A stretch of 64,000 bases of DNA. Source: Alicyclobacillus kakegawensis NBRC 103104. Lineage in GTDB: Bacteria; Bacillota; Bacilli; Alicyclobacillales; Alicyclobacillaceae. The notes under the pieces were generated by a model. That model was not told the origin of the DNA. It saw nothing but the letters and a program-made list of their open reading frames with translations, and did no database searches. This document shows, in pieces, positions 18,474 to 60,967 of the stretch. Each line of letters begins with the position of its first letter. The first letter of the stretch is position 1. Made by a program: the position numbers and the translations under genes. The stretch is taken from contig NZ_BCRP01000001.1 of assembly GCF_001552655.1 (NCBI RefSeq), positions 1 to 64,000 of the forward strand. The letters are read 5' to 3'.

Positions 18474-18494
18474 AGCAAGACGAACTCCGACACA

Positions 18495-18524
18495 ATTCTA
18501 CTCAATGGAATCGGATGAGGTCAA
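18495..18524 (-). promoter_or_regulatory. Sigma-A promoter of guaA
   Basis: On the minus strand TTGACC (18524-18519), 18-nt spacer, TAGAAT (18500-18495), about 25 nt before the aptamer. Confidence 0.65.
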
Positions 18525-18593
18525 TGATAGAATAAGCAGCTTCACGGACACGTACGTCAACGAAGGAGCGGGCATTGAAGGAGTGAGCATTGT

Positions 18594-19025
18594 TCAACCG
18601 ATTTTTCGGAAGGTGAGGCAGTATAAGCGCCCTCCGCAGATGTCCTTAAGCCGCACGTCCGCCACGTTGTCCGGCAGCAATTCGGCGATGGCTGCGCCGT
18701 TCACGGGCGCGCTTCTGCCGGAAAAATAGCGCCTCATCCAGGGAACCTTTCGGTATGCCTTCTCTCCGTTCCATTTGATGGCATGGTAGACCTTGTTCGC
18801 AAGGTTGTAAACCGGCGCGACGCGGTCGTACAATTCTTGGTACTTTTTGTTCAACCCGTGCACTTCTTCCGGCGCAAACGAGAAAATCCCGCCTGTTTGC
18901 CGGTATGATGCCTGGGAATTGCGGCTTCGCAATTGGAGGCTTCCATCGCCGCCGATAATGGGCTGCAGTGGCTCTTTCGTCAACGGATCGCACAGCAATT
19001 CCAGAATGGCATCCAGTTCTTCCGT
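18594..19025 (-). pseudogene. Decayed class-I methyltransferase gene, N-terminal part
   Basis: The frame reads EELDAILELLCDPLTKEPLQPI then QELYDRVAPVYNLANKVYHAI and NGEKAYRK, the N-terminal layout of a family of SAM-dependent methyltransferases with a leading Cys-containing segment. The expected GxGxG SAM-binding motif never appears; the frame drifts into unrelated sequence and stops. Where a start is expected, 8 nt after GGGGAGG, the codon is ACG (19025), as if an ATG had mutated. The first conventional start is a TTG at 18998 without a good ribosome binding site. It lies downstream of nagB. I read it as a pseudogene; a short functional protein is possible but less likely. Confidence 0.6.
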
Positions 19026-19087
19026 GTGTGTCGCCTCCCCTCTCCAAAGCTGGGCATTGACACAAAGAAATAAGCAGTCACGAAAAT

Positions 19088-19834: not shown

Positions 19835-19892
19835 AAAAGTCTCCTTAATTTGTATTGTAGAGATATTCCTCAAAACGACACCAGGTCAAGTT

Positions 19893-20999: not shown

Positions 21000-21017
21000 T
21001 GGATTATCTTCCTAAAA

Positions 21018-22977: not shown

Positions 22978-22983
22978 TGAGCG

Positions 22984-23958: not shown

Positions 23959-23973
23959 GCGGATCCCCTCAGT

Positions 23974-24960
23974 CTATTGCGCACGTCTGGCCCGCGGATC
24001 CAGTCTCACGTACACCAGATCGGCCAGGAAGTTGGCAACCAGTACCCCAATCGCGATCAACAACAGCGCCCCCTGCATCATCGGGTAATCCTCGTTGCCT
24101 ACCGCCTGGAACAGCTCATATCCGAGCCCCGGATAGGAAAACACGATTTCGGTCAGAAGCGCGCCGCTCAAGATGAACCCTAGCGATAGCGCAAAGCTCG
24201 TGATATTGGGCAAGATAGCGTTACGTGCCGCGTATCTCAGCATCACGCGCGTATTGGCTAAGCCCTTGGCCTTGGCGACCTTCACATATTCTTCGGACAG
24301 CGTCGTGATCATGTTGTTGCGCATGCCGAGCAGCCAGCCGCCGATGGACGTGACGACGATGGTGAGGGCCGGTAAGATGGCGTGATACAGAATGTCAGGC
24401 AAATTGGCCCAACTCCATCCCATGACGGTGTCGCTGTAGGCATGGCCGATGGGAAACCACCGCAGCCGAAAGGCGAGAAAGTACAGGGCGACGAGGGCAA
24501 GCCAAAAGTAGGGAAACGCGCCTAACAGCGTGAACACCGTCGGTGCGACCGAATCGAGCACGGAGCCTCTGCGCCAAGCCGACACGATGCCGAGGAGTGT
24601 GCCGATGACAAAGCTGATAACGGTTGACGTGCCGAGCAGAAACAGCGTCCACGGCAGGGATTGCATCAGCACCTGTGTCACGGTCTCAGGGTAAAGACCA
24701 AACGAGTACCCAAGGTTCCCGTGAAATACCTGACCGATATACTGAAAGTACTGGGTCAAGATGCTCGTATGCTGGTCAAGGCCGAACAGTTGCGCGTACG
24801 AGGACAGGGCGTGCGGATTGATCTGGCCTTTAAACTTCGCAACTAGCACGAGCATGGGGTTGCCCGGCATCATGCGCGGCAGAGCGAAGTTGAGTGTGAT
24901 AGCAGCCCACAACGCCACGACGTAAAACACTATTTTTCGAACTAGGTATTTCAATGTCAC
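23974..24960 (-). CDS. Opp/Dpp-type ABC importer permease (OppB-like)
   Basis: 328 residues with the DppB/OppB architecture: N-terminal helix, LPRMMPGNPM, and a cytoplasmic loop EYVKVAKAKGLANTRVMLRYA with the EAA motif. About six transmembrane segments. The GTG at 24960 is preceded by AAGGA at 6 nt. Pairs with the OppC-like permease. Confidence 0.92.
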   Translation of the reverse strand: MTLKYLVRKIVFYVVALWAAITLNFALPRMMPGNPMLVLVAKFKGQINPHALSSYAQLFGLDQHTSILTQYFQYIGQVFHGNLGYSFGLYPETVTQVLMQSLPWTLFLLGTSTVISFVIGTLLGIVSAWRRGSVLDSVAPTVFTLLGAFPYFWLALVALYFLAFRLRWFPIGHAYSDTVMGWSWANLPDILYHAILPALTIVVTSIGGWLLGMRNNMITTLSEEYVKVAKAKGLANTRVMLRYAARNAILPNITSFALSLGFILSGALLTEIVFSYPGLGYELFQAVGNEDYPMMQGALLLIAIGVLVANFLADLVYVRLDPRARRAQ

Positions 24961-25052
24961 TCACAGTCCTTCGAAATGAAGTGAAATCAGGAATTGCCAT
25001 CACGTCTACCAGCAAGGCGCTAGGAGAAAAGCTCGCTCCTGCACGCTTCTCG

Positions 25053-26762
25053 TCACTTCTGATATACCTGTGAGAAGATGTACATTTGATCAATGGGACC
25101 AGCAAAAGTCGCGTACGGATTTTGCGCTGAAGGCCAACCGACCAGATTGGTGGTGTTGTACTCATCCCATGCCACGCCGTTGAGCAGCGGGATAACCGGC
25201 AGGTTAGTCGCGAAAATGTTCTCGAGTTTGTGCATGATCGCCTTCTGCTGAGCAGTCGAGAAGGTGAGAGGATACTCGTTCAAGAGTTGATCCGTCGTCT
25301 TGTCGCTCCAACGCTCGGTGTTGCTCATGGCTTGTTTGCCTATCGGAGCCGTGTACTTACTGTTCAGTAATTGGTTATACCCGATGTATGCCGGGCCCTG
25401 GTTCACCCAACCAAAGGTCAATTGGAAGTTGCCGTTTGCCATGAGGCTGTAGAGGGTGGAGGCGGACAGCGTTTTTACCTGCGTGTCGATACCAATCGCC
25501 CGCAGATTGCCCGCGATGACGCCAGCATCCGCAATCCAGTCTGTTACTCCAGATGCGACATCAATGGTCAACGAGACTGTATGTCCCTTTGGATCAACCA
25601 ACTTCCCGGCCTGATTCCAAGTGAACCCTGCCTGCTTTAAAATAGTCTTCGCCTTTTGGGGATTGTACGTCAGCGGATGCTTGTCCAGAATGGACTTATC
25701 CAGGTATTGCTGACTGGCCAGGTTATTCGGAAGCGCAACACTGTTACTTACCGGCTCATAACCGAACTCCCCAAGCCGTGCCACCTGTGAACGATTAATC
25801 GCAGCACTCAATGCCTGCCGGAAGGCAGTCAGATTAGTGGGATAAGCGGCATCGTTGGTCTCCAGCACGACCGAACCGATGGGCGAGAACCAGTCGTGGT
25901 AGTTAGCACTGTGGCTTAACAAGGTGGACTGTATACTCGTGATAAACTGAGCGCCCGCGTCGAATTTGCCCTGCGCCATGGCCATCGCTGCCGTGTTGTT
26001 GTCCAGGTACAGTGGAATGCGTACCTGCTGCACGTATGGCTCCGGCGCGTTCCAGTAATGTGGATTACGCTTGAATGTGATCAGCGACGACGTCACCGAC
26101 TGTACCAAAAATGGGCCTGTCGTGACAGGATTGCTGTCCTTGAATGTGACAGGGTTTTGCTTCGCCCAGATGTGCTCGGGCAAGATAGGCGTATCGTCGC
26201 CAATGTAATACCAGGCCGTGTTATTGACCGCCTTTAGGTTGATGATAACCTTGTACGGGCCTTTCGCCTTCACCGACTGGATCATCCCGCTGAGATTGTT
26301 CACGTCAATGCTGTGATGGCTGACGAGCATGTTCAGCGTGTACACGACGTCTTTCGAAGTAAACGGTACACCGTCAGACCACTTGACACCGGAACGCAGC
26401 GTCACCGTGATGGACTTATGATCTTTTGAATAGGAGAACGACGTCCCGAGTTTCGGAATTGTCTGCCCAGTGCTTTGATTGTAATAGAACAGCGGCTCAT
26501 ACACCCACATTATGCCACCCGACACAGGATTGGCAGGCGACCATGGGTTAAAATCATCGACAAAAGGACCGTTGGGGGCCCACACAAATGTAAGAGTCCC
26601 TCCTATCCGCCGAGATTGATCCGATGTAGAAGTCCCATTTGCCTGTTGAGATTGATTCGAAACCGGATTCATGCCACACCCGATGCTAGAAACGGCAAAA
26701 ACAGAACTTACTGCCATTGTCGCGAGTTTCGCAGCCACGCGCTTGCTATCCTTCGTCTTCAC
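25053..26762 (-). CDS. Substrate-binding lipoprotein of the Opp-type importer (SBP family 5)
   Basis: 569 residues. A signal peptide ends in a lipobox (SSIGC), then comes a Ser/Gln/Asn-rich linker and a family-5 extracellular solute-binding domain (LRSGVKWSDGVPFTSKDVVYTL; VTTGPFLV; C-terminal PVIPLLNG). This subfamily includes importers of plant-derived oligosaccharides as well as peptides. The GTG at 26762 follows AGGGGG by about 8 nt; codons upstream are not signal-peptide-like. Being next to GH4, ROK and NagB genes, a glycoside ligand is more likely than a peptide. Confidence 0.9.
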   Translation of the reverse strand: MKTKDSKRVAAKLATMAVSSVFAVSSIGCGMNPVSNQSQQANGTSTSDQSRRIGGTLTFVWAPNGPFVDDFNPWSPANPVSGGIMWVYEPLFYYNQSTGQTIPKLGTSFSYSKDHKSITVTLRSGVKWSDGVPFTSKDVVYTLNMLVSHHSIDVNNLSGMIQSVKAKGPYKVIINLKAVNNTAWYYIGDDTPILPEHIWAKQNPVTFKDSNPVTTGPFLVQSVTSSLITFKRNPHYWNAPEPYVQQVRIPLYLDNNTAAMAMAQGKFDAGAQFITSIQSTLLSHSANYHDWFSPIGSVVLETNDAAYPTNLTAFRQALSAAINRSQVARLGEFGYEPVSNSVALPNNLASQQYLDKSILDKHPLTYNPQKAKTILKQAGFTWNQAGKLVDPKGHTVSLTIDVASGVTDWIADAGVIAGNLRAIGIDTQVKTLSASTLYSLMANGNFQLTFGWVNQGPAYIGYNQLLNSKYTAPIGKQAMSNTERWSDKTTDQLLNEYPLTFSTAQQKAIMHKLENIFATNLPVIPLLNGVAWDEYNTTNLVGWPSAQNPYATFAGPIDQMYIFSQVYQK

Positions 26763-26826
26763 TTGAAAATCCCCCTGAATTCGTAATCCACTCTTTCGAC
26801 CGCATCTGTCGCACAATACCCAGGCA

Positions 26827-28107
26827 TCAAGAAAAACGCGGCAAATAGTCTTTGTGGACGGAAAGCAGCTCATCGAGCGTCTTCTCCGCGGCATCCATAC
26901 TGTCTACCACCGGATCAACCAAGAGCGCTTGCAGGGCTGCCTGGCGGTCACCCTTCACAGCAGCTTCCACTGCCAATCGCTGCACTGAGACCTGCATTTC
27001 GCAAAGCGCGGCGATGCCCGCCGGCAGACGGCCCATGGTAAGTCCCTGAATCCCAAAACCGCTTACGAGGGCTGGCACTTCTACCACTGCATCCCGCGGT
27101 AGGTTCTCGATACAGCCGTTGTTCGGGATATTCACCGCATGCACGTACTCGTTACGATTCTCCACGATGGCGCGGATAATGGTAAATGCCACCTCCCCAG
27201 ACGGTTTCGTCAACAGATCCCCCAAATCCCCTTCGCCTCTAGCCAGGGACTTCAGTCGCGTCCATAGCTGTTCGCGGTAGTCAGCCGCCCATTTAAAGTC
27301 ATAACCATGCAAACCTGTTTTCTCGTAGGCATACGATAGGTACTCACCGATGTGATCATCGCTCGGCGCTGGCCAATAACCGAAACGGCGGAACATCGCC
27401 CGGGTCAAGGGATCATGAGATTCTCCCAATTCAGCCTCCGCTTTGCGCAGGGCCGGGTACAGATCTTCACCTGTGTTCTTGTCGCGAATGTCGAGCAGCC
27501 ACAACAGGTGATTGACCCCTGCCGCTTTGACGTCGATGTCTTCACTCTTTCTACCTAACAACTCCGCTACCCGGTCACGCCCCATGTACACACCATGGCA
27601 AAGACCTACAGCTTTAATGCTTGTATACTTACTGACCGCCATGATGATACGACTCTCAGGATTCGAGAAATTGATCAGAAGCGCGTTCGGGCACAGCCGC
27701 TCCATATCCGCGCAAATGTCTAAAATCAGCGGTATGTTACGCAACGCATGCGATAGGCCGCCAGGGCCTCCATTTTCGCCGAGCACTTGCCGAATGCCGT
27801 ACTTGCGTGGAATTTCCCAATCTTTTTTCCAGAGTTCATCCCGTTTTACGGCGATCGAGATGATGACAAAGTCCGCCTCCGGCAGCGCCTCCTCTCGATT
27901 CGTCGTTGAGGAGATCTTGAGACCCGTTCCCGCTTCCTCATTCATCCGCTTTGCGAGTCTCGTCACGATGTCCAGGTTTTCCTCGTTCAAATCAACGAGG
28001 ACCAGTTCGCTGTCTTTCAACTCTTTCATTTGAATGGCGTCCCGCAGCGAACCCGGTCCAAAGGAAACGCTTCCAGCACCGATAATCACGATTTTTGAAG
28101 GCCTCAT
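26827..28107 (-). CDS. Glycoside hydrolase family 4 (NAD-, metal-dependent glycosidase)
   Basis: 426 residues. GH4 features: N-terminal dinucleotide fold ([16 protein letters not shown]), NFSNPESRI, the metal-binding Cys in GLCHGVY and the metal-binding His in [13 protein letters not shown]4 enzymes cleave alpha- or beta-glycosides by an NAD/Mn redox mechanism; members act on alpha-galactosides, alpha-glucuronides/galacturonides or 6-phospho-glycosides. With an ABC rather than PTS importer in the operon, a non-phosphorylated substrate is expected. The ATG at 28107 follows AAGGAG. Confidence 0.9.
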
Positions 28108-28142
28108 ATCGCTTCACTCCTTAGCGAATTCGAATTGGTGTC

Positions 28143-29336
28143 CTACAATAATTTCAGATACTCGCTCTCCATAAACACGGTTCCCGCCGCGCCGACGGCA
28201 CCTGCATCCTCGCCCAAACTGGCCAAGACGATTGGACACTCTATCGGCGACATTCTCGCCACCCCTTTGCGGAGCCTATCCATCAACATATCTTTTGCAC
28301 CAGCAACCCCACCTCCAATAATCACAACATCCGGATCGAGCAGTACTAAGACATTGCTCAGCGCCGCAGCCAGATACTCCGAAACCGTGTCAATGACGCG
28401 AACCGCCAGCTCATCCCCTGATCCCGCCGCCGCGAAGACATGCTCCGAAGTGACTGGTGAAAACGCCTGCAATACAGAGGACGGATACTCTCCAAGCAAC
28501 TTCCGGGCCATGTTGGCAATCCCAACGCCAGAAGCGAACGTCTCGAGAGAGCCATACTCGAGAAAGCGCACCTCTCTTTCCGATGAGTTGTCGAATATTT
28601 GAAAGTACCCAATTTCCCCTGCATACCCTCTGCTCCCTCGATACAGCTGATTGGCGATAATGATACCTGCGCCGATGCCCGTACCGATTGTGATCATGAT
28701 GGCGTTCGACGCATCCTTGGCGGCGCCACGCCATCTTTCACCAATCACGGCCATATTGGCATCGTTTTCAATAAGGATGGGATTGGGGAGAATACCTGCA
28801 ACCACATTCCTGACATCGAGTTCATCAATGGCGAGTCCAGGTGCATTGGTCAAAAGTCCCGTGTGCGGATCTACAAATCCTGGAACACCAATCCCCGTGC
28901 CTAGAATTCTGTCTGCGGGGATCTGTGTTTCCGAGACAAATGCGGTAGCTTCCGAAGCTATGTACTCCACGGCCGCCACACCACGATATAAGGTCGATAT
29001 CTTCTTCTTAGCCACGATGTCGCCGGCCAGATTTACTAACGAAAAAATAGTTTTTGTCCCCCCCACATCGATCCCGAGGGCGAACCTCGAATCTGGGACA
29101 AACTGTAGATGAATCGGACGCCTCCCTCCATGCGCGGTCGATTCACCGGTTCCAGCTTCCCGTATCATCCCTTCCGCCAGCAGCTCATCGACGATAATCG
29201 ATACGACGGAACGGCTCATATTCAATTTCTGTGCGAGATCCGCTCGTGAGATAGGAGAATTCTCCCTGATCAATTGCAAAATGGCGGAACGGTTAAATTT
29301 TCTTATGTCAGATAAAGTGCCCTTCTTCAGGTCCAC
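28143..29336 (-). CDS. ROK-family transcriptional repressor (NagC/XylR type)
   Basis: 397 residues. An N-terminal winged helix-turn-helix (ISRADLAQKLNMSRSVVSIIVDELL) is followed by a ROK sugar-kinase-like domain with ALGIDVGGTKT, LGTGIGVPGFVD, MITIGTGIGAG and CSGG-region sequence lacking the classical Cys cluster: the segment reads GSRGYAGEIGYFQI where ROK proteins often have a zinc-binding C-x-C-x4-C a little further on, and I see none. First gene of the sugar operon; probably autoregulates it by sensing the released sugar. The GTG at 29336 is 8 nt from GAGGAG. Confidence 0.9.
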   Translation of the reverse strand: MDLKKGTLSDIRKFNRSAILQLIRENSPISRADLAQKLNMSRSVVSIIVDELLAEGMIREAGTGESTAHGGRRPIHLQFVPDSRFALGIDVGGTKTIFSLVNLAGDIVAKKKISTLYRGVAAVEYIASEATAFVSETQIPADRILGTGIGVPGFVDPHTGLLTNAPGLAIDELDVRNVVAGILPNPILIENDANMAVIGERWRGAAKDASNAIMITIGTGIGAGIIIANQLYRGSRGYAGEIGYFQIFDNSSEREVRFLEYGSLETFASGVGIANMARKLLGEYPSSVLQAFSPVTSEHVFAAAGSGDELAVRVIDTVSEYLAAALSNVLVLLDPDVVIIGGGVAGAKDMLMDRLRKGVARMSPIECPIVLASLGEDAGAVGAAGTVFMESEYLKLL

Positions 29337-29359
29337 AACTATAACTCCTCGTTTGTTTG

Positions 29360-29433
29360 AACTAAGTTCGAACTAACTATAGCTGAATGATAGACGGTAC
29401 ATGATTCTTTGTCAACTCCAAATTTAAACTAAC
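29360..29433 (-). promoter_or_regulatory. Promoter of the sugar operon bracketed by two operator-like repeats
   Basis: On the minus strand TTGACA (29415-29410), 17-nt spacer, TATCAT (29392-29387). Two related sites flank it: GTTAGTTTAAATTTGGAGTT (29433-29414, overlapping the -35) and GTTAGTTCGAACTTAGTT (29377-29360, downstream of the -10). The second contains a perfect AGTTCGAACT palindrome. Their position suits repression by the adjacent ROK protein. Confidence 0.7.
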
Positions 29434-29487
29434 AATATTTATTGATATAGCGCATAAGTGCATACATATCTACCGATATCGCGCCAC

Positions 29488-29527
29488 CAAAAAAAGAAAG
29501 AGACACCCATAAATGGATGCCTCTTTC
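29488..29527 (-). terminator. Terminator of the small gene at 29.6-29.9 kb
   Basis: A stem GAAAGAGGC.../...GTCTCTTTC with an inner CCAT/ATGG, then T7-8 on the minus strand. It separates the small gene from the sugar operon promoter. The stem is A/T-flanked on both sides, so it may also work from the plus strand. Confidence 0.75.
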
Positions 29528-29590
29528 TTATATATGTTAGCACACAACAGGAATCGTTGTCGCTGCTCCGCACACGGATAAGTATGAGTT

Positions 29591-29887
29591 TTACCACCAC
29601 CAGGCCCACGGACCGAGCGCAGCGAGTGCGAGAAATGGGAAGAATAGAAATGGAAACCAGGCCTCTTGAACGTCCTCCATGGACTGAGACATGTTCTGTA
29701 GTATACCCGTGTCTTCCGTATTGACGCTTGTGGCAGCCGCGAGGCGGGTCGTTCCGCCACCCACCGGACGTACATAAATGCCATCATGGGTCACGGAATG
29801 GAGAATTCCATGGTGAGTTGCGCCGTCTTTCGTCCGGAAGACGACATGCTGTCCAATAAACCGCATGCAATGGGCACGTGTAATCAC
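29591..29887 (-). CDS. Small conserved-looking protein, spore-former type
   Basis: 98 residues. The first half looks like a small Sm/SH3-like beta-barrel (FIGQHVVFRTKDGATHHGIL, GIYVRPVGGG); the C-terminus is very hydrophobic and aromatic (WFPFLFFPFLALAALGPWAWWW, here in part). Similar short proteins with a barrel plus FFPF tail occur in Bacillales spore formers, but I cannot name the family with certainty. The GTG at 29887 follows GAGGGGGAAATT. Followed by its own terminator. Confidence 0.7.
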   Translation of the reverse strand: MITRAHCMRFIGQHVVFRTKDGATHHGILHSVTHDGIYVRPVGGGTTRLAAATSVNTEDTGILQNMSQSMEDVQEAWFPFLFFPFLALAALGPWAWWW

Positions 29888-30004
29888 AATTTCCCTCCCC
29901 CTTCATTGATAAACAGGCGCCCGTTAAGGTCTGTCCATCAACTCGTGTACTTTATGCGTAATCAGTTGGTCAGATTGGACATATGGATTGGCGCGGTTTT
30001 TCAA

Positions 30005-30127
30005 TTAGCACACGGAAGTCGTTGTTGCTCCTCCATACCCGTATCCGGGAACGAACAAGAAGAACAGAACGAAGATAATCAGGAACACCACGGCCCAACG
30101 GGTATAGACGCCAAAGACCCCGTACAT
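30005..30127 (-). CDS. 40-residue hydrophobic protein (YjcZ-like sporulation type)
   Basis: The ATG at 30127 follows GGGGGGGAGTTGA, a very strong ribosome binding site. The product has a short N-terminus (MYGVFGVYTRW), one membrane helix (AVVFLIIFVLFFLFV) and a Gly/Tyr-rich tail (PGYGYGGATTTSVC). The layout resembles the small YjcZ-type sporulation proteins of Bacillales, with the Gly/Tyr segment at the C- instead of the N-terminus. Together with the gene at 29.6-29.9 kb it suggests a small sporulation-associated pair. Confidence 0.65.
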   Translation of the reverse strand: MYGVFGVYTRWAVVFLIIFVLFFLFVPGYGYGGATTTSVC

Positions 30128-30250
30128 TCAACTCCCCCCCTCCGTCGGTCGATACATTTAATGTTTTGGGGATCATCATGTTAAAGGATATCTGTCCTAG
30201 AAAATCGGCCCTTTTTCACACCCTTACCCCATCGTTCCACACGGGAGAGA

Positions 30251-31624
30251 TTAGTTACGCTGGCGTATGAACCACGGTTTCAGCGCGTACAGGACCAGCA
30301 GCACCGCAACACTGACCAAGCTGAGGACGAGCTGCGATCGATCCGTTGGGTGAAAGGCCATCGACACCATCACCACCACCATGCCCAGTATGCAGACGTA
30401 AGTCAGGTACGGATACGCCCACATGCGGACCCGCAACTGCTCCGCCGCCTCTTGCTCCAACTGCCGGCGCATGCGAAGTTCCGACACGGCAATCAACAGG
30501 TAGATGAACAATCCGACCGCGCCGGACGAGTTGAGCAGAAACATAAAAACGTGTTGTGGCGAGACGTAGTCCATGATGACAGACAGGTAACCGACCACCG
30601 TGCAAGTCAAGATGGCCCGCATCGGCACGCCGCGGCGATTGAGTCTAAGCAGGCCTCGCGGCGCGTTACCCTGGTGTGCCAGGGCAAACAGCATCCGGGA
30701 CGCCGTGTACAGACCTGAATTCAGGCAGGATAAGACAGCCGTCACCACGACCAGGTTCATGATGGTCGTCGCTCCCGGAATACCAAGCACATTTAACGCA
30801 CTGACGTACGGGTTCATCATCGCTTTCGAATCGTTCCACGGCAGGATTGTAACGACGAGGAAGATGGACAGGACGTAAAACACGAGCACACGCCAGATTA
30901 CCGAGTTCGTGGCTCTCGCGACTGCCCGGCTTGGCTCGGCCGATTCAGCCGCCGCGATAGTGACAATCTCAGACCCAAAGAAGGAGAAGATGAGCGTCGT
31001 CACACTCGCAAACAACGCGAGCACCCCGAACGGCGCGACCCCCCCGTGCGCCGTGAGATTTGAGAAATTCAGCCTGGCATGCGGCCACAGTCCGAGCACA
31101 TACAGCGAACCCAGGATGATAAACACGGTGATGGCCCCGACCTTGATGGAAGCAAACCAGTATTCAAATTCGCCGTACGCACGGACCGAGAAGACGTTCG
31201 TCGCCGTCAACAACACCAGCAGAATGAGTGACAGCAACCACAGTGGCACTTGCGGGAGCAGCCAGTTGTGCAACGTCAGCGCACCAGCAGTGGCCTCCAC
31301 CGCCACGACTATTACCCAAAAGTACCAGTATAACCAACCTATCAGAAAACCGGCCCAATCTCCGATTGCGATCCGTCCGTACTCCGCAAACGATCCCACG
31401 GACGGATGCGCCACTGCCATCTCCCCCAGCATGCGCATGATCAGGATGACCAAAACGCCGGCAAGCGCATAGGAGAAAACAGCAGCCGGCCCAGTCGATT
31501 GGATGACAGCCCCACTGCCGACAAACAACCCCGCGCCGATGACGCCGCCCAGCGAGATCATGGTCATATGACGCATTCGCAACGCTTTGTGCAAGGATTC
31601 CTGCTGTGTTTTCTGCTCCTGCAT
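30251..31624 (-). CDS. Amino acid permease, APC superfamily (AAT family, GabP/AroP-like)
   Basis: 457 residues, 12 predicted transmembrane segments. The N-terminus has the AAT signature LRMRHMTMISLGGVIGAGLFVGSG; FSFFGSEIVTIAAAES and RRGVPMRAIL are also typical. It is a proton-coupled amino acid importer; the substrate (for example GABA, aromatic or branched amino acids) cannot be decided. The ATG at 31624 follows GGAGG at 8 nt. Divergent from the binding protein at 31.9 kb. Confidence 0.9.
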   Translation of the reverse strand: MQEQKTQQESLHKALRMRHMTMISLGGVIGAGLFVGSGAVIQSTGPAAVFSYALAGVLVILIMRMLGEMAVAHPSVGSFAEYGRIAIGDWAGFLIGWLYWYFWVIVVAVEATAGALTLHNWLLPQVPLWLLSLILLVLLTATNVFSVRAYGEFEYWFASIKVGAITVFIILGSLYVLGLWPHARLNFSNLTAHGGVAPFGVLALFASVTTLIFSFFGSEIVTIAAAESAEPSRAVARATNSVIWRVLVFYVLSIFLVVTILPWNDSKAMMNPYVSALNVLGIPGATTIMNLVVVTAVLSCLNSGLYTASRMLFALAHQGNAPRGLLRLNRRGVPMRAILTCTVVGYLSVIMDYVSPQHVFMFLLNSSGAVGLFIYLLIAVSELRMRRQLEQEAAEQLRVRMWAYPYLTYVCILGMVVVMVSMAFHPTDRSQLVLSLVSVAVLLVLYALKPWFIRQRN

Positions 31625-31723
31625 TGAGATTTCCTCCGGTGATTAAGGTGAAAAGCGCCCGACGCAGACAAACGGCCCCTCCGCCCGTCCAGGCATATCA
31701 TGGTCATTGCGAGGGGCATCAAT

Positions 31724-31749
31724 ACACTCACGCGTCACACTCACGCGTC
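31724..31749. repeat. 13-bp perfect tandem repeat between divergent transport genes
   Basis: ACACTCACGCGTC occurs twice head to tail; each unit contains the ACGCGT palindrome. It lies in the promoter region between the permease and the binding-protein gene, so it may be a regulator site. An extended -10 (TGT-TATACT, 31843-31851) for the plus-strand gene lies about 100 nt further on. Confidence 0.6.
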
Positions 31750-31886
31750 GGCCCGCAGGTGCCCGTTCGCATGTACCCTGCCCAACCGGAGGAACTGTAT
31801 CCGAGCATTATTTCTGGGTCTACCATATACCACTAAACCCCGTGTTATACTGTGACATAAATCCATAAGAATAAGAGGTGCAACCT

Positions 31887-33560
31887 GTGAGCACGCTGAA
31901 GAAGACCGCTGTTCTCCTCCTATCGATACCAACTTTGGCAGCCGCCCTGACAGGGTGCGGAGCCACATCGCAACCCATATCCACCCATTCGACTTCGACA
32001 GGCAATCATCCCACCGAAGGCGGCGCGATTGAGATTGACAGCACCGCCGCCCCGCATCAATTGGATCCAGCCAAAGCGTTTGACGGGGTCTCGGAAGAGG
32101 TCGTTTTGGAACTGTACGACCAGCTGGTGACATACAAGGGCTCGACATCTACCATTGTGCCATCCGTGGCGGAGCGATGGACCGTTAGCCCAGACGGAAA
32201 GACCTATACATTTTATCTTCGCAAGGGCATCCGCTTCTGGAACGGAGACAAACTCACAGCGCAATCATTCATTGATGAGTTTGAGCGTGTCCTAAATCCG
32301 AAAGTGAATTCTCCTGTGGAAGGTTTTATCGATCCGATTGTTGTCGGATCCTCCGCGTATCACAAGGGAAAAGCAAAGACGGTTAAGGGCCTGGAGGCTC
32401 CGGATCCGTACACCTTGGTGATTCACCTGACCCAGCCGGAACCGTTCTTCCTGCAAATCCTGGCCATGCCCACATTTTCCGCCGTGGACAGTAAGTACAT
32501 TCAATCTGTAGGCGAGAATGCGTTCGATTCCACGTCGCCAATGGGAACCGGCCCGTTTAAGCTACGTCAAATCTCGTCCAACCAAGTGGTGCTGACGAAG
32601 AACCGAAATTATTGGAAGAAAGACCAGTACGGGAACCGCCTGCCGTATCTCGATAAGGTGACAATCAATGTGAACCCGAACGCTCAACTGGATGCCATTA
32701 ATTTCCAAAATGGCACGACCGCACTGATGGGGCAACTGACGGACGGGATCCCTTCCTCGTCTTACGCAAGCTTCATGAGCAATCCCAAATTGCGGAAAGA
32801 TATCGTCCGGACGGTCCGCAATGCAACCTTTTACCTAGGGTTGAACACCCACATGGCACCATTGAACAACGTGAAGGTGCGCCAGGCCATTGAGTACGCA
32901 ATTAACAAGAAGAAGATTGTCCAACTCATTGGAGGACGGGGGCTAATCGCCAACCAACCGCTCCCCCCAGGCATCCAAGGATACCTGCAACATCTGCCGT
33001 CGGAAGTAAACTATACATACGACCCGCCCAAGGCAAAGCAATTACTGAAGGAAGCGGGATACCCGAAAGGGGTTACCATCACCCTGTACACGTACGAAGA
33101 CCCAGACATGGTGAAGATCCTGCAAAGCATCCAATATGACCTGTCCCGGGTAGGCATCCGATCCAAAGTCAAGTCCTTGGCCCTCGGAGCTTACATGGAC
33201 TTGAACACGAACGGCAAGACGCAAGCGTTCCTGACCGACTGGGGACAGGACTATCCAGACCCGTCGGACTTCCTGAACTCTCTGTTCAACACGAACCAGC
33301 AGCCACAGAACAACTCGACGCTCTACTCCAATGCGTCAGTAGATCAGTGGCTGAACAAAGCGCAGACCGACACGAATACGTCGGAGCGCATGGAGCTATA
33401 CAAGAAGGTCACTATTCAGGTCATGAAAGATGCACCCATCGTCCCTCTGTATTACTCGGTCCGGACAGATGCCGTGCAGCCTTGGGTGCACGGCTACTAT
33501 GTGAGTCCATCCTTACGGGATCCTTTGCAGTATCTTTGGGTTGATTCAAAGCACAAGTAA
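31887..33560 (+). CDS. Orphan oligopeptide-type substrate-binding lipoprotein (SBP family 5)
   Basis: 557 residues. Signal peptide with lipobox ALTGC, then a family-5 binding domain (LDPAKAFDGVSEEVVLELYD; FYLRKGIRFWNGDKLTAQSF; MGTGPFKL; C-terminal APIVPLYY). No permease or ATPase genes adjoin it, so it either serves a transporter encoded elsewhere or acts as a sensor or chaperone-like binding protein. Of two in-frame GTGs, 31887 is chosen for its spacing to AAGAGG. It is only distantly similar to the sugar-operon binding protein at 25.1-26.8 kb. Confidence 0.88.
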   Translation: MSTLKKTAVLLLSIPTLAAALTGCGATSQPISTHSTSTGNHPTEGGAIEIDSTAAPHQLDPAKAFDGVSEEVVLELYDQLVTYKGSTSTIVPSVAERWTVSPDGKTYTFYLRKGIRFWNGDKLTAQSFIDEFERVLNPKVNSPVEGFIDPIVVGSSAYHKGKAKTVKGLEAPDPYTLVIHLTQPEPFFLQILAMPTFSAVDSKYIQSVGENAFDSTSPMGTGPFKLRQISSNQVVLTKNRNYWKKDQYGNRLPYLDKVTINVNPNAQLDAINFQNGTTALMGQLTDGIPSSSYASFMSNPKLRKDIVRTVRNATFYLGLNTHMAPLNNVKVRQAIEYAINKKKIVQLIGGRGLIANQPLPPGIQGYLQHLPSEVNYTYDPPKAKQLLKEAGYPKGVTITLYTYEDPDMVKILQSIQYDLSRVGIRSKVKSLALGAYMDLNTNGKTQAFLTDWGQDYPDPSDFLNSLFNTNQQPQNNSTLYSNASVDQWLNKAQTDTNTSERMELYKKVTIQVMKDAPIVPLYYSVRTDAVQPWVHGYYVSPSLRDPLQYLWVDSKHK

Positions 33561-33594
33561 AACTTCGTCAGACCCATGGAGTCATATTGTGTTG

Positions 33595-33660
33595 ACAGCC
33601 ACCAAACGCCGTCGAATCCAGCTGAAACATACGCTGGATTCGGATGCCGGTGGTGGCTGT
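33595..33660. terminator. Long hairpin between convergent genes
   Basis: ACAGCCACCA (33595-33604) pairs with TGGTGGCTGT (33651-33660), and the inner CGAATCCAGC (33613-33622) with GCTGGATTCG (33633-33642). It lies between the convergent binding-protein gene and acoC. No clear U-run follows on either strand, so a bidirectional terminator is likely but not proven. Confidence 0.55.
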
Positions 33661-33764
33661 ACAACTGTTTGTTGTGGGCAAGTGACCGGGGTCTCTCGCT
33701 TCCTACTTGCCCCAATCAACTCCACGCAGGTCTCTGCAGCCGACTCCAACCAGCCGATGCACCG

Positions 33765-35129
33765 TTATACAAGCATTCTTATCGGATCTTCCAAGTATTT
33801 CTTCACACTCCTGAGAAACCCAGACGCCGGTGCACCGTCCAACGCACGATGGTCAAACGTGAAACTCAGTGGCAGCAAGGCACGCGGCTGCCATTCACCA
33901 CTGACATACTTGGCGCTGTCCTGCACCGCGCCGACACCAAGGATGCCAATCTCTGGCGGATTGAGGATTGGCGTGAAGAATTCGACGCCATACCCGCCGA
34001 GATTCGTGACGGTGAATGTCGATCCCCCCGTTTCCGCGGACTCAAGCTTGCCGGAGCGGGCCCGGCGGCTGACGGACTTGATGGCCTTGGCCAACTGGAT
34101 GAACGACATCTTGCCAGCGTCACGAACCACGGGCACCAACAGGCCAGCATCGAGCGCCACTGCGACGCCGAGGTGGACAACTGGATATGGATGAATCCCT
34201 TCTTCCGTGATGTGGCCGTTGACGGCGGGATGATCCATCAACGCCAGCACCGCAGCGCGCGCGACGAGATCGGTCAGTGTACACTTCACGTCATACCTAT
34301 CGCGCACCCAATCCGCGTGCTTATTCAACAGAGCAACCGCGTCCGTCACATCTGCGGTCATTGTAATGGTCAACTGTGCTGACTGGTGCAAGCTCTGCAT
34401 CATTCGCGTGGCGATGGCACGACGCATGGCCGTCATCGGAAGCACAGCGGACTTCGCTTCCGCGCGTGGAGCAGGTGGGTGCCCCACCGCGTCGCCGTCG
34501 ATACCCAACCCGATTGCCGTTTTCGTATCAACAAAACGTTCTTGAGCGACACGTTCGTGTGGCGATCCGCCCGTCCCCAATACCGCTGCAGCCGATGAAC
34601 GGCCTTTGTCCTTATTGGCTGCCGCTCGTTCGACGTCCTCCTTCGTAATCCGTCCACCAGGTCCGGTTCCCGCAACCTGGCGGATGTCAACACCCAAGTC
34701 CCGCGCCAGCTTCCGTGCCGCCGGTGAGGCCTTCCGGGGCTGATTGACAGGGTGTGAAGGGCTTGGATCCTCTGCGAAGTGGAGATCCCTCATATCCGCC
34801 CTCAAGACTGAGACGGCTGACCCTGAACCTGCCGAAGACGCCATGCCGGTGGCACCTCGAGCATCGCCCGCCCCGACTGCTACACGCTCTCTGACTTGAC
34901 CGACGTACCCAATCACCGTACCGCAGGGGACGACGCCTTCATCCGGGACCAAGATGTCCAGCAGCACGCCGTCTTCCGGTGCTTCCACCTCATATTCAAT
35001 CTTTTCCGACCGGATTTCGACCAAGCATTCTCCCTTTTGCACAGGATCGCCGACTTGCTTTCGCCACGCGACCACGGTCCCTTCTTCCATTCCCATGCCC
35101 AATTTGGGCATGATGACTTCTACGGACAC
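33765..35129 (-). CDS. acoC: Dihydrolipoamide acyltransferase (E2) of an acetoin/2-oxoacid dehydrogenase
   Basis: 454 residues. An N-terminal lipoyl domain (IMPKLGMGMEEGTVVAW, lipoyl-lysine in SEKIEYEVEAP), an Ala/Gly linker, a peripheral-subunit-binding domain (ASPAARKLARDLGVDIRQV) and a C-terminal catalytic domain with the DHRALDG active-site motif. The E1 genes upstream are of acetoin type, hence acoC, but other branched 2-oxoacid complexes share this design. GTG start at 35129 after GGAGGG. No E3 (dihydrolipoamide dehydrogenase) gene follows; the shared cellular E3 is presumably used. Confidence 0.88.
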   Translation of the reverse strand: MSVEVIMPKLGMGMEEGTVVAWRKQVGDPVQKGECLVEIRSEKIEYEVEAPEDGVLLDILVPDEGVVPCGTVIGYVGQVRERVAVGAGDARGATGMASSAGSGSAVSVLRADMRDLHFAEDPSPSHPVNQPRKASPAARKLARDLGVDIRQVAGTGPGGRITKEDVERAAANKDKGRSSAAAVLGTGGSPHERVAQERFVDTKTAIGLGIDGDAVGHPPAPRAEAKSAVLPMTAMRRAIATRMMQSLHQSAQLTITMTADVTDAVALLNKHADWVRDRYDVKCTLTDLVARAAVLALMDHPAVNGHITEEGIHPYPVVHLGVAVALDAGLLVPVVRDAGKMSFIQLAKAIKSVSRRARSGKLESAETGGSTFTVTNLGGYGVEFFTPILNPPEIGILGVGAVQDSAKYVSGEWQPRALLPLSFTFDHRALDGAPASGFLRSVKKYLEDPIRMLV

Positions 35130-56996: not shown

Positions 56997-57035
56997 TGTT
57001 CACCGCTGATCCGCACGATTGCTCATTCCCCATCC

Positions 57036-57055
57036 AGGCGCCCTTGTGGGCGCCT
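57036..57055 (+). terminator. Hairpin after the formamidase gene
   Basis: AGGCGCCC, TTGT loop, GGGCGCCT: a perfect 8-bp stem about 40 nt after the stop codon. No U-run follows, so it is a probable but weak terminator. Confidence 0.5.
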
Positions 57056-57180
57056 GTGCCTCAGGGACACGGACAGACCGGCGCGTGGAGTTGTTTGGCT
57101 TCATAGTTCAACCGCTTATGGACTTTAAAAGTTGAATCGGGAAATAGTGAAACCGCCGGTGTCACAGCCCTTCCTGTGCG

Positions 57181-57232
57181 TTGACAATAATGATACAACT
57201 TTGTTGACAATATTATTGTTCGTATGTATTAT
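57181..57232 (+). promoter_or_regulatory. AT-rich promoter of the cupin cluster with a repeated -35 block
   Basis: TTGACA (57204-57209), 17-nt spacer, TATTAT (57227-57232). TTGACAATAATGATACAA at 57181 is repeated in altered form as TTGACAATATTATTG at 57204, giving a 23-bp direct-repeat-like pair that may be an operator. The AT content is sharply above the flanking genes. Confidence 0.7.
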
Positions 57233-57284
57233 TATCATTACTCTAAATAGAAAAATAATAGTGCAATGAAGGAGGAAGACTAGT

Positions 57285-57836
57285 ATGTCCGGAACGCCCA
57301 ATCCGAAGGTAACAACACCCTCGGCCGCTTACTCATCCGCTTACAAGATCATTGATATTCCCGAGCCCTATAAGCATGTTATCGACCGCCACAGTGTCCC
57401 CGGAAAATTTGTCAATTCGCAGGAGAGCCCATGGGTGCCGTTCGGTGAAAACGCTTCCATCCGGCACCTTGCCTTCGATGTGCGCAACAACATTGCCAGC
57501 AACATTCTTTGGATTAAGTCCGGGGGAGTAATCGGCACCCATAAACACAGGGGGACCGTCGTCATGGTGTGCCTGGAAGGCAGTTGCCGGTATCTCGAAT
57601 ATGATTGGGTGGCACATCCCGGAGATTTTATCTATGAAACACCGGGACTTTCCCATACGCTCGTCAGTGACGATCCGAATGGCGTCAAGCTGTTTGGCTG
57701 GCTTCAGGGACCCATCGAGTTTTACGACGAGAACGCCAATTTCTTAGAGACGGTCGATGTCTGGTGGTATATCCACCACTACGAAACCTACTGCCGCGAG
57801 CACGGTATCCCGATCAACCCGCAAATGTATCTCTGA
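57285..57836 (+). CDS. Cupin dioxygenase-like protein (dihydroxyacetophenone dioxygenase type)
   Basis: 183 residues with a single cupin barrel. Metal ligands are in the first motif (GGVIGTHKHRGTVVMVCLEG: His-x-His, then Glu) and the second (FIYETPGLSHTL: His). The layout and length resemble the 2,4'-dihydroxyacetophenone dioxygenase and acetylacetone dioxygenase-like group, Fe(II) enzymes that cleave C-C bonds next to carbonyls. ATG 57285 follows GAAGGAGGAAG. The substrate is not determined; ring or ketone cleavage is inference. Confidence 0.78.
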   Translation: MSGTPNPKVTTPSAAYSSAYKIIDIPEPYKHVIDRHSVPGKFVNSQESPWVPFGENASIRHLAFDVRNNIASNILWIKSGGVIGTHKHRGTVVMVCLEGSCRYLEYDWVAHPGDFIYETPGLSHTLVSDDPNGVKLFGWLQGPIEFYDENANFLETVDVWWYIHHYETYCREHGIPINPQMYL

Positions 57837-58013
57837 TTGGCCAGAACGGTAGCTTCTCCGGTTTATGAATTCGGTTTCAGACCACAAGAACCTCATTTTC
57901 ATTTCATCCGTTCGGGGCTCTCTCCGGGAGGGTGATGCGAACAACGGCCTCTGCAATCCCCTATCCCCTCTCGGGGAGAGAGAAACTGGGCGGTGCAGAG
58001 AGGTGGATTGACT

Positions 58014-59282
58014 TTGCACGTCATAAGACGGCTGTGGTCGTATGAAAACGCTGTCCTGGCAATTCTGTCACTCGGCTGGGGGTTTCTCTTTCTCGAGAGA
58101 CTGGACATCAATTACTTAATGCCCTTTATGGTCAAGGACCTTCATCTGTCCAACGCCCAGGTCGGATTCATCGCGGCTGGTTTTTCATTGACATGGTCGT
58201 TGTCGGGCTATTTCGGAGGGTATGTTGGAGATCTCTTGGGGAAACGCAAGCTGCTCCTCATCATTTGTGTCCTGGCCTTCTCCTTTTTTTCCTTCATCAC
58301 GGGTCTCGCTACAGGCTTTCTTCTCTTGGTCGTGTTCCGAATGGTGATGGGATTGCTGGAAGGACCATTCTTTCCGCTCGGAAGCTCTATACTCCTTGCG
58401 GAATCCACATATTCCCGTCGCGGATTCAATTTAGGGTTTCTCCAAAATTTTTCTTCCAACATATTGGGCGGCATGCTCGGGCCCATCATTATTGTGGCGC
58501 TGGCCACAGCGTTCGGCTGGCGATACACGTTCTTCTTCACCGTCATCCCAGGCATTCTCGTAGCCATCCTTATGTGGCTATTCTTAAGGGAGCCGAACCT
58601 GCTGGCCGACGATTCGCTGGATGCGACGTCGAACGGTAAACAGTCCACGGAGCCAAAGATCAAGCCATGGGTTGTGTTTAAATATCGTAATATTGTGCTG
58701 TGCATGATTATTTCGGTCTGCCTGATCCCCTGGTACACATTGTTGTTCACATATGCTCCACTCTATTTGACACAGGTGCGAGGAATGCCTCCCAACATCA
58801 TGAGCTATGTCATGTCAATAGTCGGCATCAGTGCGGCCGTCTGGGGTTTTGTTGTGCCGACTCTGTCGGACCGGTGGGGCAGGAAGCCGATGATGATTCT
58901 GTTTTGTTTGATCTCCAGCCTGGGACCGTTGTCCATCCTGTATCTGCATGGTCCGCTCTGGCTGCTTATGGTGGTTGTTTTCATTGGATGCGCTGGCCCT
59001 GGACCGATGGCACTCTATATGTCGGTCATTCCCGCAGAGACGGTACCGAGGAGAAATGTTGGAGCAGCGATTGGACTGGCGATGGCCACGGGGGAATTTA
59101 TCGGCGGCGTCGGGATTGTCTCCGCTGGCGGCGTGATGGCGAACCACTTTGGCCTCGTGGCACCCCTGTTGATGTCCACAGGATTCGCGTTGATGGCCAT
59201 GCTCGTCTCCTTCTTCCTCACCGAAACGGCACCGAGACTGCGCGCCAGAATGGAAGTCACAGCGGACGCATTGGTCAACTAA
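58014..59282 (+). CDS. MFS transporter (organic acid/aromatic acid type)
   Basis: 422 residues, 12 predicted transmembrane segments. MFS marks: GYVGDLLGKRKLLL (loop 2-3 motif A) and PTLSDRWGRKPMMIL (loop 8-9). The N-terminus (LERLDINYLMPFMVKDLHLS) resembles the anion:cation symporter group that carries hexuronates and aromatic acids. The start is a TTG at 58014, 7 nt after AGAGGTGG; a GTG at 57993 is possible. Between cupin and MFS lies a CTCTCTCC/GGGGAGAGAG hairpin (about 57919-57983). Likely imports the cupin substrate. Confidence 0.85.
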   Translation: MHVIRRLWSYENAVLAILSLGWGFLFLERLDINYLMPFMVKDLHLSNAQVGFIAAGFSLTWSLSGYFGGYVGDLLGKRKLLLIICVLAFSFFSFITGLATGFLLLVVFRMVMGLLEGPFFPLGSSILLAESTYSRRGFNLGFLQNFSSNILGGMLGPIIIVALATAFGWRYTFFFTVIPGILVAILMWLFLREPNLLADDSLDATSNGKQSTEPKIKPWVVFKYRNIVLCMIISVCLIPWYTLLFTYAPLYLTQVRGMPPNIMSYVMSIVGISAAVWGFVVPTLSDRWGRKPMMILFCLISSLGPLSILYLHGPLWLLMVVVFIGCAGPGPMALYMSVIPAETVPRRNVGAAIGLAMATGEFIGGVGIVSAGGVMANHFGLVAPLLMSTGFALMAMLVSFFLTETAPRLRARMEVTADALVN

Positions 59283-59303
59283 ATCTAAGGAAGGAGCGCC
59301 CAT

Positions 59304-59879
59304 ATGAATCGCTTTGAAGAAGAGATCTATCATTGTACGGACGTGATCACGAAGCTCATCGAGACAACCGAGAATCCGTTACATCGTGCCATCCTCAAGA
59401 ACTACCGCAGGCACATTCACTTGGAAGGTGCGGGGTTGTTTGACGACATCGTGGCGCCCGACATGATGACCGAGGAACCGGTTTATCGCATCAATTGGGG
59501 GAAGCCGAGTGTGATTCGCGGCAAACAAGGCGTCATTGACTTCTATCGGTCCGTAAAAGATGCCGTGATGTGGAATACGGACGACCGGATTGCGGTTGCA
59601 GACTGGGGTTTGTGCGACGAACTCACGTTTAATTTTCTCGTCACAGGCAGGGACCTGACGGAATTGGGAATCGACGTGGAGGACAAAGAAGCCGTTTATC
59701 ACTATCGCACTCGTCAGGCTTTCGTTTGGCCATATGACAAACATGCGAGACTGCAAGGGGAGCACCTCTATGTCGATGCGACCAGCGTTCATGTCGAAAA
59801 GGTCGATCCGGAAGAGGTCATCACCCCGGCTCGAGCAAGAGAAATTCACCTGGAAATCCTCGAAACATTAGAGAAGTGA
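59304..59879 (+). CDS. Unidentified protein, possibly NTF2/SnoaL-like
   Basis: 191 residues, soluble. N-terminal helices (ITKLIETTENPLHRAILKNYRRHIHLEGAG, in part) precede mixed alpha/beta sequence with EEPVYRINWGKPSVIRGKQGVIDFY, reminiscent of NTF2-like folds used by SnoaL-type hydratases and decarboxylases; this is a resemblance, not an identification. ATG 59304 follows AAGGAAGGAG, 22 nt after the MFS gene, so it belongs to the cupin operon and probably acts on the same compound. Confidence 0.6.
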   Translation: MNRFEEEIYHCTDVITKLIETTENPLHRAILKNYRRHIHLEGAGLFDDIVAPDMMTEEPVYRINWGKPSVIRGKQGVIDFYRSVKDAVMWNTDDRIAVADWGLCDELTFNFLVTGRDLTELGIDVEDKEAVYHYRTRQAFVWPYDKHARLQGEHLYVDATSVHVEKVDPEEVITPARAREIHLEILETLEK

Positions 59880-59940
59880 CCGTCCAGAGTGGCGGCAATG
59901 GAATCCTTTGCATCGACTTCACGCTTCCATAAGATGCGGC

Positions 59941-59969
59941 AAGACGCGGCCAAACTCGGGCCGCGTCTT
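59941..59969. terminator. Bidirectional terminator between convergent genes
   Basis: AAGACGCGGCC and GGCCGCGTCTT form a perfect 11-bp stem with a 7-nt loop, between the convergent 59304-59879 gene and the MoeA-like gene. U-runs are weak on both strands. Confidence 0.7.
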
Positions 59970-59977
59970 CACTTCCG

Positions 59978-60967
59978 TTATGCGTTCAACCAGCCGCCCA
60001 CACCGAGCCGGGCAATGTCGTCCTCGGTGATGCGCACGCCGGCGAGCACCCGCGGCAGGAGCACGTCGAACGCCGTCTTCGCGTCGTGGATGACCGCGCC
60101 GGGCAGGCCAAAGACAGCCGTCTGTCCACGGTACCCCAACATCGTCATGGAACCGGGCAACAGCGGCATGCCGTAGCGCACAACTATGTCCACCGCCCGG
60201 CGGATGGCGCCCGGCGAGCGGTCGTCCGGATCGACCGACATGCCCCCGGTCACACAGACGATGCTGGCGCCGCCCTGGCATGCCTCGACAATGGCCGCCG
60301 CAATCGCCTCCACCTCGTCACCAGGAAACACCTGGCTTATCACCTCGACGCCAAAGCGGGCGAACTTCTCGCGCAAAACCGGACCCGACCTGTCGGCGAC
60401 ACGGCCGCTTTGAATCTCGGTGCCGGTGGTGACGATGGCCGCCCGGTGCGGCTGGTACGGGAGCACGTCGATGACTTTCCTGTCGGCGACGGCCGCCGCG
60501 AGCGCCTCCACCCGTTCCACTTTCGCCCGCTCTACCAGCAACGGGATGGGCCGCACCGCGCCAATCGATTCCCCTTCGGCTACATCGACCAAGGGCGTGC
60601 GGGTGATGACCGCGATGTCGGGGATTTTGTTCATCTCGGTGACCGTCTCCACATTCACCCACAAAAGGCCCCGCGTTGCGGCGTACATCGTCACTTTACC
60701 CTCGTGCACCTCGCTCAACCGCACCCCGGGACCGGTCACCGCCTGCGCCATGCGCAGCGCCCCTTCGTTCTCATGCAGCTCATTGTCATCTGGCTCCAGC
60801 ACATAAATGTGGCGCTTGCCCATGTCCAGCAGCCTGGGGATGTCTTCCTCGCGGATGACGTGCCCCAGCTTGAACGCGACGCCCTTGAACTGCCCGGGGA
60901 TAATCTGCGTCAGGTCGTGTGCCAGCACCATGCCGACAGCCTGCTCGACTGGTACCTCCCGCTTCAT
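59978..60967 (-). CDS. Molybdopterin-binding protein (MoeA/MoaB-like domain)
   Basis: 329 residues. The C-terminal half carries the molybdopterin-binding fold (AAIVTTGTEIQSGRVADRSGPVLREKF, then SIVCVTGGMSVDPDDRSPGAIR). The N-terminal half is shorter than in full MoeA. It may act in cofactor insertion or in delivering molybdopterin to a specific enzyme; no molybdoenzyme gene is in the window. ATG 60967 overlaps the MobA-like stop (ATGA) and follows GGAGGTGG. Confidence 0.85.
   Translation of the reverse strand: MKREVPVEQAVGMVLAHDLTQIIPGQFKGVAFKLGHVIREEDIPRLLDMGKRHIYVLEPDDNELHENEGALRMAQAVTGPGVRLSEVHEGKVTMYAATRGLLWVNVETVTEMNKIPDIAVITRTPLVDVAEGESIGAVRPIPLLVERAKVERVEALAAAVADRKVIDVLPYQPHRAAIVTTGTEIQSGRVADRSGPVLREKFARFGVEVISQVFPGDEVEAIAAAIVEACQGGASIVCVTGGMSVDPDDRSPGAIRRAVDIVVRYGMPLLPGSMTMLGYRGQTAVFGLPGAVIHDAKTAFDVLLPRVLAGVRITEDDIARLGVGGWLNA

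Follow-up and report, generated by a model that had tools for sequence, protein, structure and literature searches.

A conserved yet incomplete cupin, MFS transporter and NTF2-fold gene block in Alicyclobacillus kakegawensis, with a possible role in aromatic side-chain catabolism

We analyzed a 64,000-nucleotide stretch of Alicyclobacillus kakegawensis NBRC 103104 (contig NZ_BCRP01000001.1, positions 1 to 64,000; hereafter, the window), concentrating on three plus-strand genes that encode a cupin, an MFS transporter, and a third protein that matches no Pfam family. The original prediction, made from the sequence alone, had placed three genes here and read them as a mini-pathway. The open reading frames are present and all three are intact, but relatives hold a fourth gene in the same block, encoding a Zn-dependent alcohol dehydrogenase, that is absent from the window. 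The window block is conserved yet incomplete, with three of the four genes. It is a real catabolic block, whose function we infer by comparison: the trio would be a shortened form of a four-gene block that attacks side chains on plant-derived phenolics, probably methoxylated ones, a tentative reading to which we give slightly less than an even chance.

The block in relatives and a second locus

Alicyclobacillus acidoterrestris (G298) and Alicyclobacillus suci (G200) appear to carry the full block, in the order cupin, MFS, Zn alcohol dehydrogenase, third gene. Their proteins are 85 to 86% (cupin), 79% (MFS), and 84 to 88% (third protein) identical to those of the window, and across 299 genomes of the class, the cupin, MFS, and third gene were seen together only in these two and in the A. 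kakegawensis genome itself. The original prediction had proposed comparing gene order across genomes, and the order of the three genes is conserved in both of these relatives, which differ from the window in retaining the dehydrogenase and in having an unlike promoter region. No trace of a Zn alcohol dehydrogenase was found between the window MFS and third gene (positions 59282 to 59304).

A candidate for the missing gene lies on another contig of the same genome. Contig C8 carries a divergent XylR_N/V4R/PucR-type regulator, a cupin paralogue, a dehydrogenase, and the remnant of an MFS gene. The C8 dehydrogenase is 62% identical to that of the A. acidoterrestris block and is its sole match in the A. 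kakegawensis genome at an E value of ≤1e-60. The remnant, in the gap between cupin and dehydrogenase, covers 30 residues (377 to 406) at 57% identity (E = 4.5e-4), while the matching locus in the same genus (C23; G190, A. shizuokensis) is complete, with regulator, cupin, whole MFS (75%), and dehydrogenase. The block genes missing from the trio are not those missing from C8, so that the two loci can be regarded as complementary. The XylR_N domain is labeled in Pfam as an activator of aromatic catabolism, and the G190 relative (86%) of the C8 regulator scores 149 bits, below the cut-off, against the model of the phenol regulator MobR. A strong hairpin (z = −4.95, equaled in 0 of 200 shuffles) lies just 3′ of the cupin paralogue in A. 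suci (L046:7557-7640) and is probably a terminator.

The cupin and the third protein

The window cupin matches Pfam Cupin_7 (38 bits; cut-off, 27), and its best Pfam match is the ChrR cupin-like domain. Among solved structures, its best match is 2,4'-dihydroxyacetophenone dioxygenase (DAD) of Alcaligenes sp. 4HAP (PDB 4p9g; E = 2.3e-20), an enzyme whose O2-dependent reaction yields 4-hydroxybenzoate and formate. The two proteins share about 32% identity across 142 aligned positions; matches to ChrR in the PDB are weak (E = 0.08). The iron ligands of DAD, His76, His78, and His114, correspond to His86, His88, and His124 of the window cupin, and these histidines are kept in all the close relatives aligned. 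(This statement leaves aside the distant and badly placed sequences of G285, G020, and G276, which have gaps at the His positions; G127 and further weak matches were omitted from the alignment.) Tyr93, the catalytic tyrosine, and Glu108, both invariant in DADs, are present as Tyr103 and Glu118, and Phe43 is kept as well, whereas Trp61, Asp63, and Phe129 are replaced by Ala71, Asn73, and Gly138. We take the roles of these residues from PMC4219425, in which Trp61 and Asp63 are modeled as binding the phenol hydroxyl and Phe129 as stacking on the ring. The original prediction had likened the cupin to C-C bond-cleaving Fe(II) dioxygenases and had named a cupin without metal binding as a result that would refute the mini-pathway; the relationship to DAD and the retention of all three predicted iron ligands bear the comparison out. 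The cupin thus probably works as a DAD-type C-C cleaving dioxygenase, though it lies outside DAD proper.

That position is evident from a tree of 24 short sequences with a midpoint root. The window cupin groups, as do its orthologues from the two other Alicyclobacillus genomes, with proteins of Sphingobium, Novosphingobium, and Halomonas (61 to 66%), apart from Bacillota paralogues, including the one in its own genome (48%). DAD itself pairs with a Novosphingobium humi protein (67%; support, 1.0), and the window cupin belongs to a separate clade. Within the class, cupin matches were found in 22 of the 299 genomes, mostly at 25 to 36% identity. N. humi has members of both clades side by side (L056:9298-10528), the DAD-like cupin (67% to 4p9g) having a member of the window cupin's clade directly after it and another such member about 3.5 kb farther on.

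The third protein matched no Pfam family at an E value of ≤1 and had no meaningful NCBIfam match, and a profile search of PDB sequences gave nothing relevant; matches to a kinase and to an endoglucanase at an E value of 0.5 were taken as chance. An AlphaFold2 model built from five sequences (pLDDT, 82.5; pTM, 0.80; residues 52 to 64 poorly modeled) was compared with the solved folds listed by Foldseek and VIA-align. The best Foldseek match was to ketosteroid isomerase (E = 2.0e-5). VIA-align gave Z scores of 12.3 for 3i0y (130 aligned residues; root mean square deviation, 2.8) and 12.1 for SalBIII (129 residues; 2.5), with many other NTF2-like members at about 11 to 12.5 over 116 to 144 residues. 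The predicted structure therefore has the NTF2/SnoaL/ketosteroid isomerase fold, which replaces the earlier assignment of this protein to an unknown fold class.

Relatives of this protein are few. Homologues occur in 7 of the 299 class genomes, including its own, and in 3 of the 7 only as fragments; in a phylum-wide sample, the A. kakegawensis genome was the single match among 398. A scan of named genomes gave four loci (A. suci, A. shizuokensis, and metagenome-assembled genomes [MAGs] of a Rubrobacteraceae and a Bacillota member), and 5 of 72,556 plasmids carry a homologue (four from Rhodococcus, one from Salipiger; the five aligned proteins are 25 to 36% identical). Three Rhodococcus homologues were scanned, and none had a Pfam match at an E value of ≤0.01. 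The viral contigs searched held no relative. The fragments, all in the same family as the window genome, are in G103 (L040), G158 (L041), and G048 (L042); one has an in-frame TAA, and the others are C-terminal pieces only. The broken remnants in these three further genomes indicate that the third gene decays repeatedly. In A. shizuokensis (L039/L050), the gene is solitary; several kb away lie a gene for an XylR_N/V4R protein and genes that, by eye, resemble those of a multicomponent phenol hydroxylase. In the Rubrobacteraceae MAG, a relative (72%) stands directly after a gene for LigM, a vanillate/3-O-methylgallate O-demethylase (594.7 bits; cut-off, 580).

Transcription, surroundings, and origin of the block

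Upstream of the trio (Table 1) are genes for an FmdA/AmdA amidase, an amino acid permease, and a glutamine synthetase-like protein, and downstream are convergent molybdopterin genes. As originally noted, no regulator gene adjoins the trio among the flanking genes examined on both sides. The original prediction also assigned the three genes a single shared promoter. A promoter-like site does precede the cupin, the evidence for it being its match to the consensus (three such sites were found, against 2.2 expected in shuffles), and the MFS and third genes, 21 nucleotides apart, are likely to form one operon. The cupin and MFS genes, however, are separated by about 0.17 kb containing a predicted hairpin (z = −1.9; equally good in 8 of 200 shuffles), so that read-through across this gap is putative. 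The hairpin could be an attenuator or a processing site; nothing comparable was seen in the cupin-MFS gaps of A. acidoterrestris and A. suci (z = +1.9 and +1.5).

Table 1. Features of the trio and its surroundings (window positions)
Feature	Position	Strand	Remark
Duplicated GTTGACAATA block	57180-57189 and 57203-57212	+	Two exact copies, 23 bp apart
Promoter-like site TTGACA-17-TATTAT	57204-57232	+	11/12 consensus bases; −35 inside second GTTGACAATA copy
Cupin gene	57285-57836	+	183 aa; DAD-related Fe(II) dioxygenase candidate
Predicted hairpin, cupin-MFS gap	57908-57996, inner stem 57918-57980	+	−51 kcal/mol
MFS transporter gene, probable importer	~58011-59282	+	Reading frame opens at 57993; start codon uncertain, about 58008-58014
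Dehydrogenase-less junction	59283-59303	+	In relatives, site of a ~1.06-kb gene for a Zn-dependent alcohol dehydrogenase
Third gene	59304-59879	+	191 aa; predicted NTF2/SnoaL-fold protein; no Pfam match
Stretch with no equivalent between amidase and moeA in G048 and G190	57069-59941 (G048); 56997-59978 (G190)	.	Same-genus genomes

The description of an AT-rich promoter with a duplicated block holds: the 170 bp upstream have a GC content of 35%, and both copies of GTTGACAATA are exact. A direct repeat as long as this arose in 21 of 2,000 dinucleotide shuffles of the upstream stretch and is present in 27 of 751 segments of the same length taken from the whole window. With its exact spacing, the pair has no second occurrence in the 3.42-Mb genome. 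The repeat is unusual, not extraordinary. We rejected it as a conserved operator, as neither A. acidoterrestris nor A. suci has it in front of the cupin gene; the only word common to the three cupin upstream regions is an 8-mer, TGTCACAG.

The composition of the promoter had been taken as a hint of acquisition, and the wider composition agrees with this in part. The GC content of the block, 51%, is below that of both its left flank (62%) and its right flank (68%), and the third-codon-position GC of its genes is 0.61 to 0.65, against 0.78 to 0.83 in five neighbors. Its surroundings differ among the window, G298, and G200, which fits movement of the block, although loss in sister species would fit likewise. 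About a dozen bases separate the amidase gene from moeA in G190. In G048 the distance is about 14 kb, and similarity to the window ends at 57068 and resumes at 59942. The G048 interval (C6:44600-58700) contains, by eye, an aldehyde dehydrogenase, a sigma-54 activator, and a permease, and the amidase-moeA site is variable: empty in G190, occupied by the trio in the window and by other genes in G048. Downstream of the block in G298 and G200 are genes for IclR, CoA-transferase III, HMGL-like, MFS, PrpD, and PrpB proteins, with an additional SDR gene in G200 (family searches covered the G298 proteins and the G200 SDR; the rest of G200 was assigned by similarity and order). The IclR-to-PrpB genes (L037:307-7114) could form a route for a methyl-branched acid.

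Low GC is not peculiar to the block, since the window has further such stretches at about 17.6 to 22 kb, 23 to 35 kb, and 38 to 42 kb; parts of positions 17600 to 35000 have, like the trio, a GC content of about 0.51 to 0.56. The longest word shared by the block ends, at just 7 bases, gives no indication of insertion terminal repeats. The block proteins are 79 to 88% identical to those of the A. acidoterrestris group, against 61 to 62% for MoeA and 71% for FmdA. Recent transfer from that group was nevertheless dropped, because a cupin paralogue shared by the two groups is equally similar (85.5 to 86%, against 85 to 86% for the window-type cupin) and dS against A. acidoterrestris and A. suci is near saturation (at least 1.7 or not computable; dN, 0.08 to 0.15). 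That the cupin groups with proteobacterial proteins suggests that phyla exchanged it at an earlier time. Acquisition of the block is plausible, but not as a recent event.

Substrate class and known systems

The gene content, the conserved metal ligands, the predicted fold of the third protein, the conservation of the block, and its complementary losses are observed. From these we infer the substrate class, the chemical steps, and the cross-regulation of the two loci as follows. The MFS would import an aromatic compound, and the Zn dehydrogenase, supplied to the window trio by the C8 locus, would oxidize a side-chain alcohol to the ketone. The NTF2-like protein would carry out a lyase, dehydration, or isomerization step on the side chain or on a ring-derived intermediate, and the product, an alpha-hydroxyketone (or diketone), would then be bound by the cupin at Fe(II), where its C-C bond would be cleaved with O2 into an aromatic acid plus a short one, for example formate. 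The C8 regulator may govern both loci. Genes near the relatives point the same way. The closest proteobacterial cupin found, that of Sphingobium TomTYG72 (66%), is followed by genes for an SnoaL_4 protein, IclR, an O-demethylase-like GcvT-family protein, metF, purU, and folD (L055:9998-16934), and a gene annotated vanA is also nearby. The O-demethylase-type neighbors of this cupin and of the actinobacterial third gene point to cleavage of lignin-type side chains. The Sphingobium folate genes would fit a cupin reaction whose formate or C1 units feed into folate metabolism.

Several observations weigh against this reading. Without the residues equivalent to Trp61, Asp63, and Phe129 of DAD, the cupin may act on something other than a 4-hydroxyphenyl ketone. 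Outside the three Alicyclobacillus genomes, no cupin gene was found with the third gene next to it, and the Sphingobium SnoaL_4 neighbor is an analogy at most, as profile comparison showed no relationship between it and the third protein. The A. kakegawensis genome encodes eight MFS proteins of this type (E ≤ 1e-40), so that with respect to the MFS the complementarity of the two loci is not strict. Finally, the best models for the MFS and the dehydrogenase are of sugar-acid and polyol/threonine types. The window MFS belongs to PF07690 (MFS_1; 178 bits against a cut-off of 33), and its best NCBIfam model is the D-galactonate transporter TIGR00893 (108 bits; cut-off, 395), with the aromatic acid/H+ symport model TIGR00895 also below its cut-off (65.7 against 418.6 bits). 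The original view of this protein as an acid importer is thus weakly indicated, with no NCBIfam cut-off reached. The best scores of the block dehydrogenase, 247 bits with an inosose dehydrogenase model and 207 bits with one for threonine dehydrogenase, are below the respective cut-offs.

These scores, together with the altered cupin pocket, would suit a block that degrades an aliphatic or sugar-derived hydroxyketone or a sugar acid, the MFS importing it, the dehydrogenase making the keto compound, and the cupin cleaving it. We consider such a substrate unlikely, since XylR_N/V4R-type regulators adjoin the cupin in Alicyclobacillaceae, Halomonas, and Pseudosulfitobacter and relatives have O-demethylase neighbors. 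It is also conceivable, if improbable to about the same degree, that the locus is a decaying relic whose remaining genes lost their function with the dehydrogenase and regulator. The missing dehydrogenase, the third-gene remnants in three other genomes (one with a stop in frame), the lone third gene of A. shizuokensis, and the damage to the C8 copy would all fit decay, whereas the window retains three intact frames and a near-consensus promoter, and dN is low against near-saturated dS, although these rates mostly reflect the time before any recent loss. Least probable, and quite doubtful in our view, is that the cupin is a metal-dependent isomerase, lyase, or ChrR-like sensor rather than a dioxygenase; its best Pfam match and weak PDB matches are to ChrR, but the match to DAD is far stronger and the three His residues and the equivalents of Tyr93 and Glu108 are kept.

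A bolder proposal, which we regard as unlikely but worth stating, is as follows: the third gene would found a new family of NTF2-fold lyases or isomerases that acts with the non-DAD cupin clade in an uncharacterized lignin-type side-chain cleavage route of heat- and acid-loving bacteria, and here the route would survive only because a single aromatic-sensing regulator governs two damaged loci, on separate contigs, that supply it together. If the two loci cooperate, they would show plainly how copies that lack different steps can maintain a pathway between them. A cupin with the iron site but not the pocket of DAD and an NTF2-fold protein without a named family are, in addition, two directly testable enzymes. 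A. acidoterrestris, one of the two species that appear to have all four genes, taints juice with guaiacol formed from vanillin-type aromatics (PMC9713406).

As far as the results of our literature search show, no paper describes the block of cupin, MFS, dehydrogenase, and NTF2-fold protein. The original prediction suggested a short route for a ketone or aromatic acid that known operons would not make obvious; in fact, a cupin with dehydrogenases, an importer, and an XylR_N-type sensor recurs in several phyla. In Halomonas PA16-9 and Pseudosulfitobacter, an XylR_N-type regulator stands beside a cupin, an SDR, a dehydrogenase, and an importer. In common with the four-gene block, these clusters have a cupin (60 to 61%), a Zn dehydrogenase, and an importer, which is of the MFS type in Halomonas and of the ABC type in Pseudosulfitobacter; they differ in their SDR and in the regulator alongside, and they gave no match to the window's third gene. 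In Novosphingobium MBES04, the cluster that responds most strongly to lignin and to a model dimer of it, with a phenylpropanone as the effector, begins with a DAD-like gene (PMC10866074).

For the third protein, the closest parallels are likewise in aromatic catabolism. LdpA and PcfL, NTF2-superfamily gamma-formaldehyde lyases, release formaldehyde from lignin dimers (PMC12997858 and PMC11323797); they share their superfamily with the third protein by its predicted fold, and both occur in aromatic catabolism settings. Their sphingomonad partners are lignostilbene dioxygenases (PMC12997858), whereas the partner in the window is a cupin. MgaD of Pseudomonas sp. NGC7 is described in PMC12314914 as an SnoaL-like putative tautomerase of syringate catabolism. 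Like the third protein, it is of the NTF2 family, and it sits in a methoxy-aromatic operon; unlike the third protein, it has an SnoaL match (pfam13577). Together, LdpA/PcfL and MgaD suggest two candidate chemistries for the third protein.

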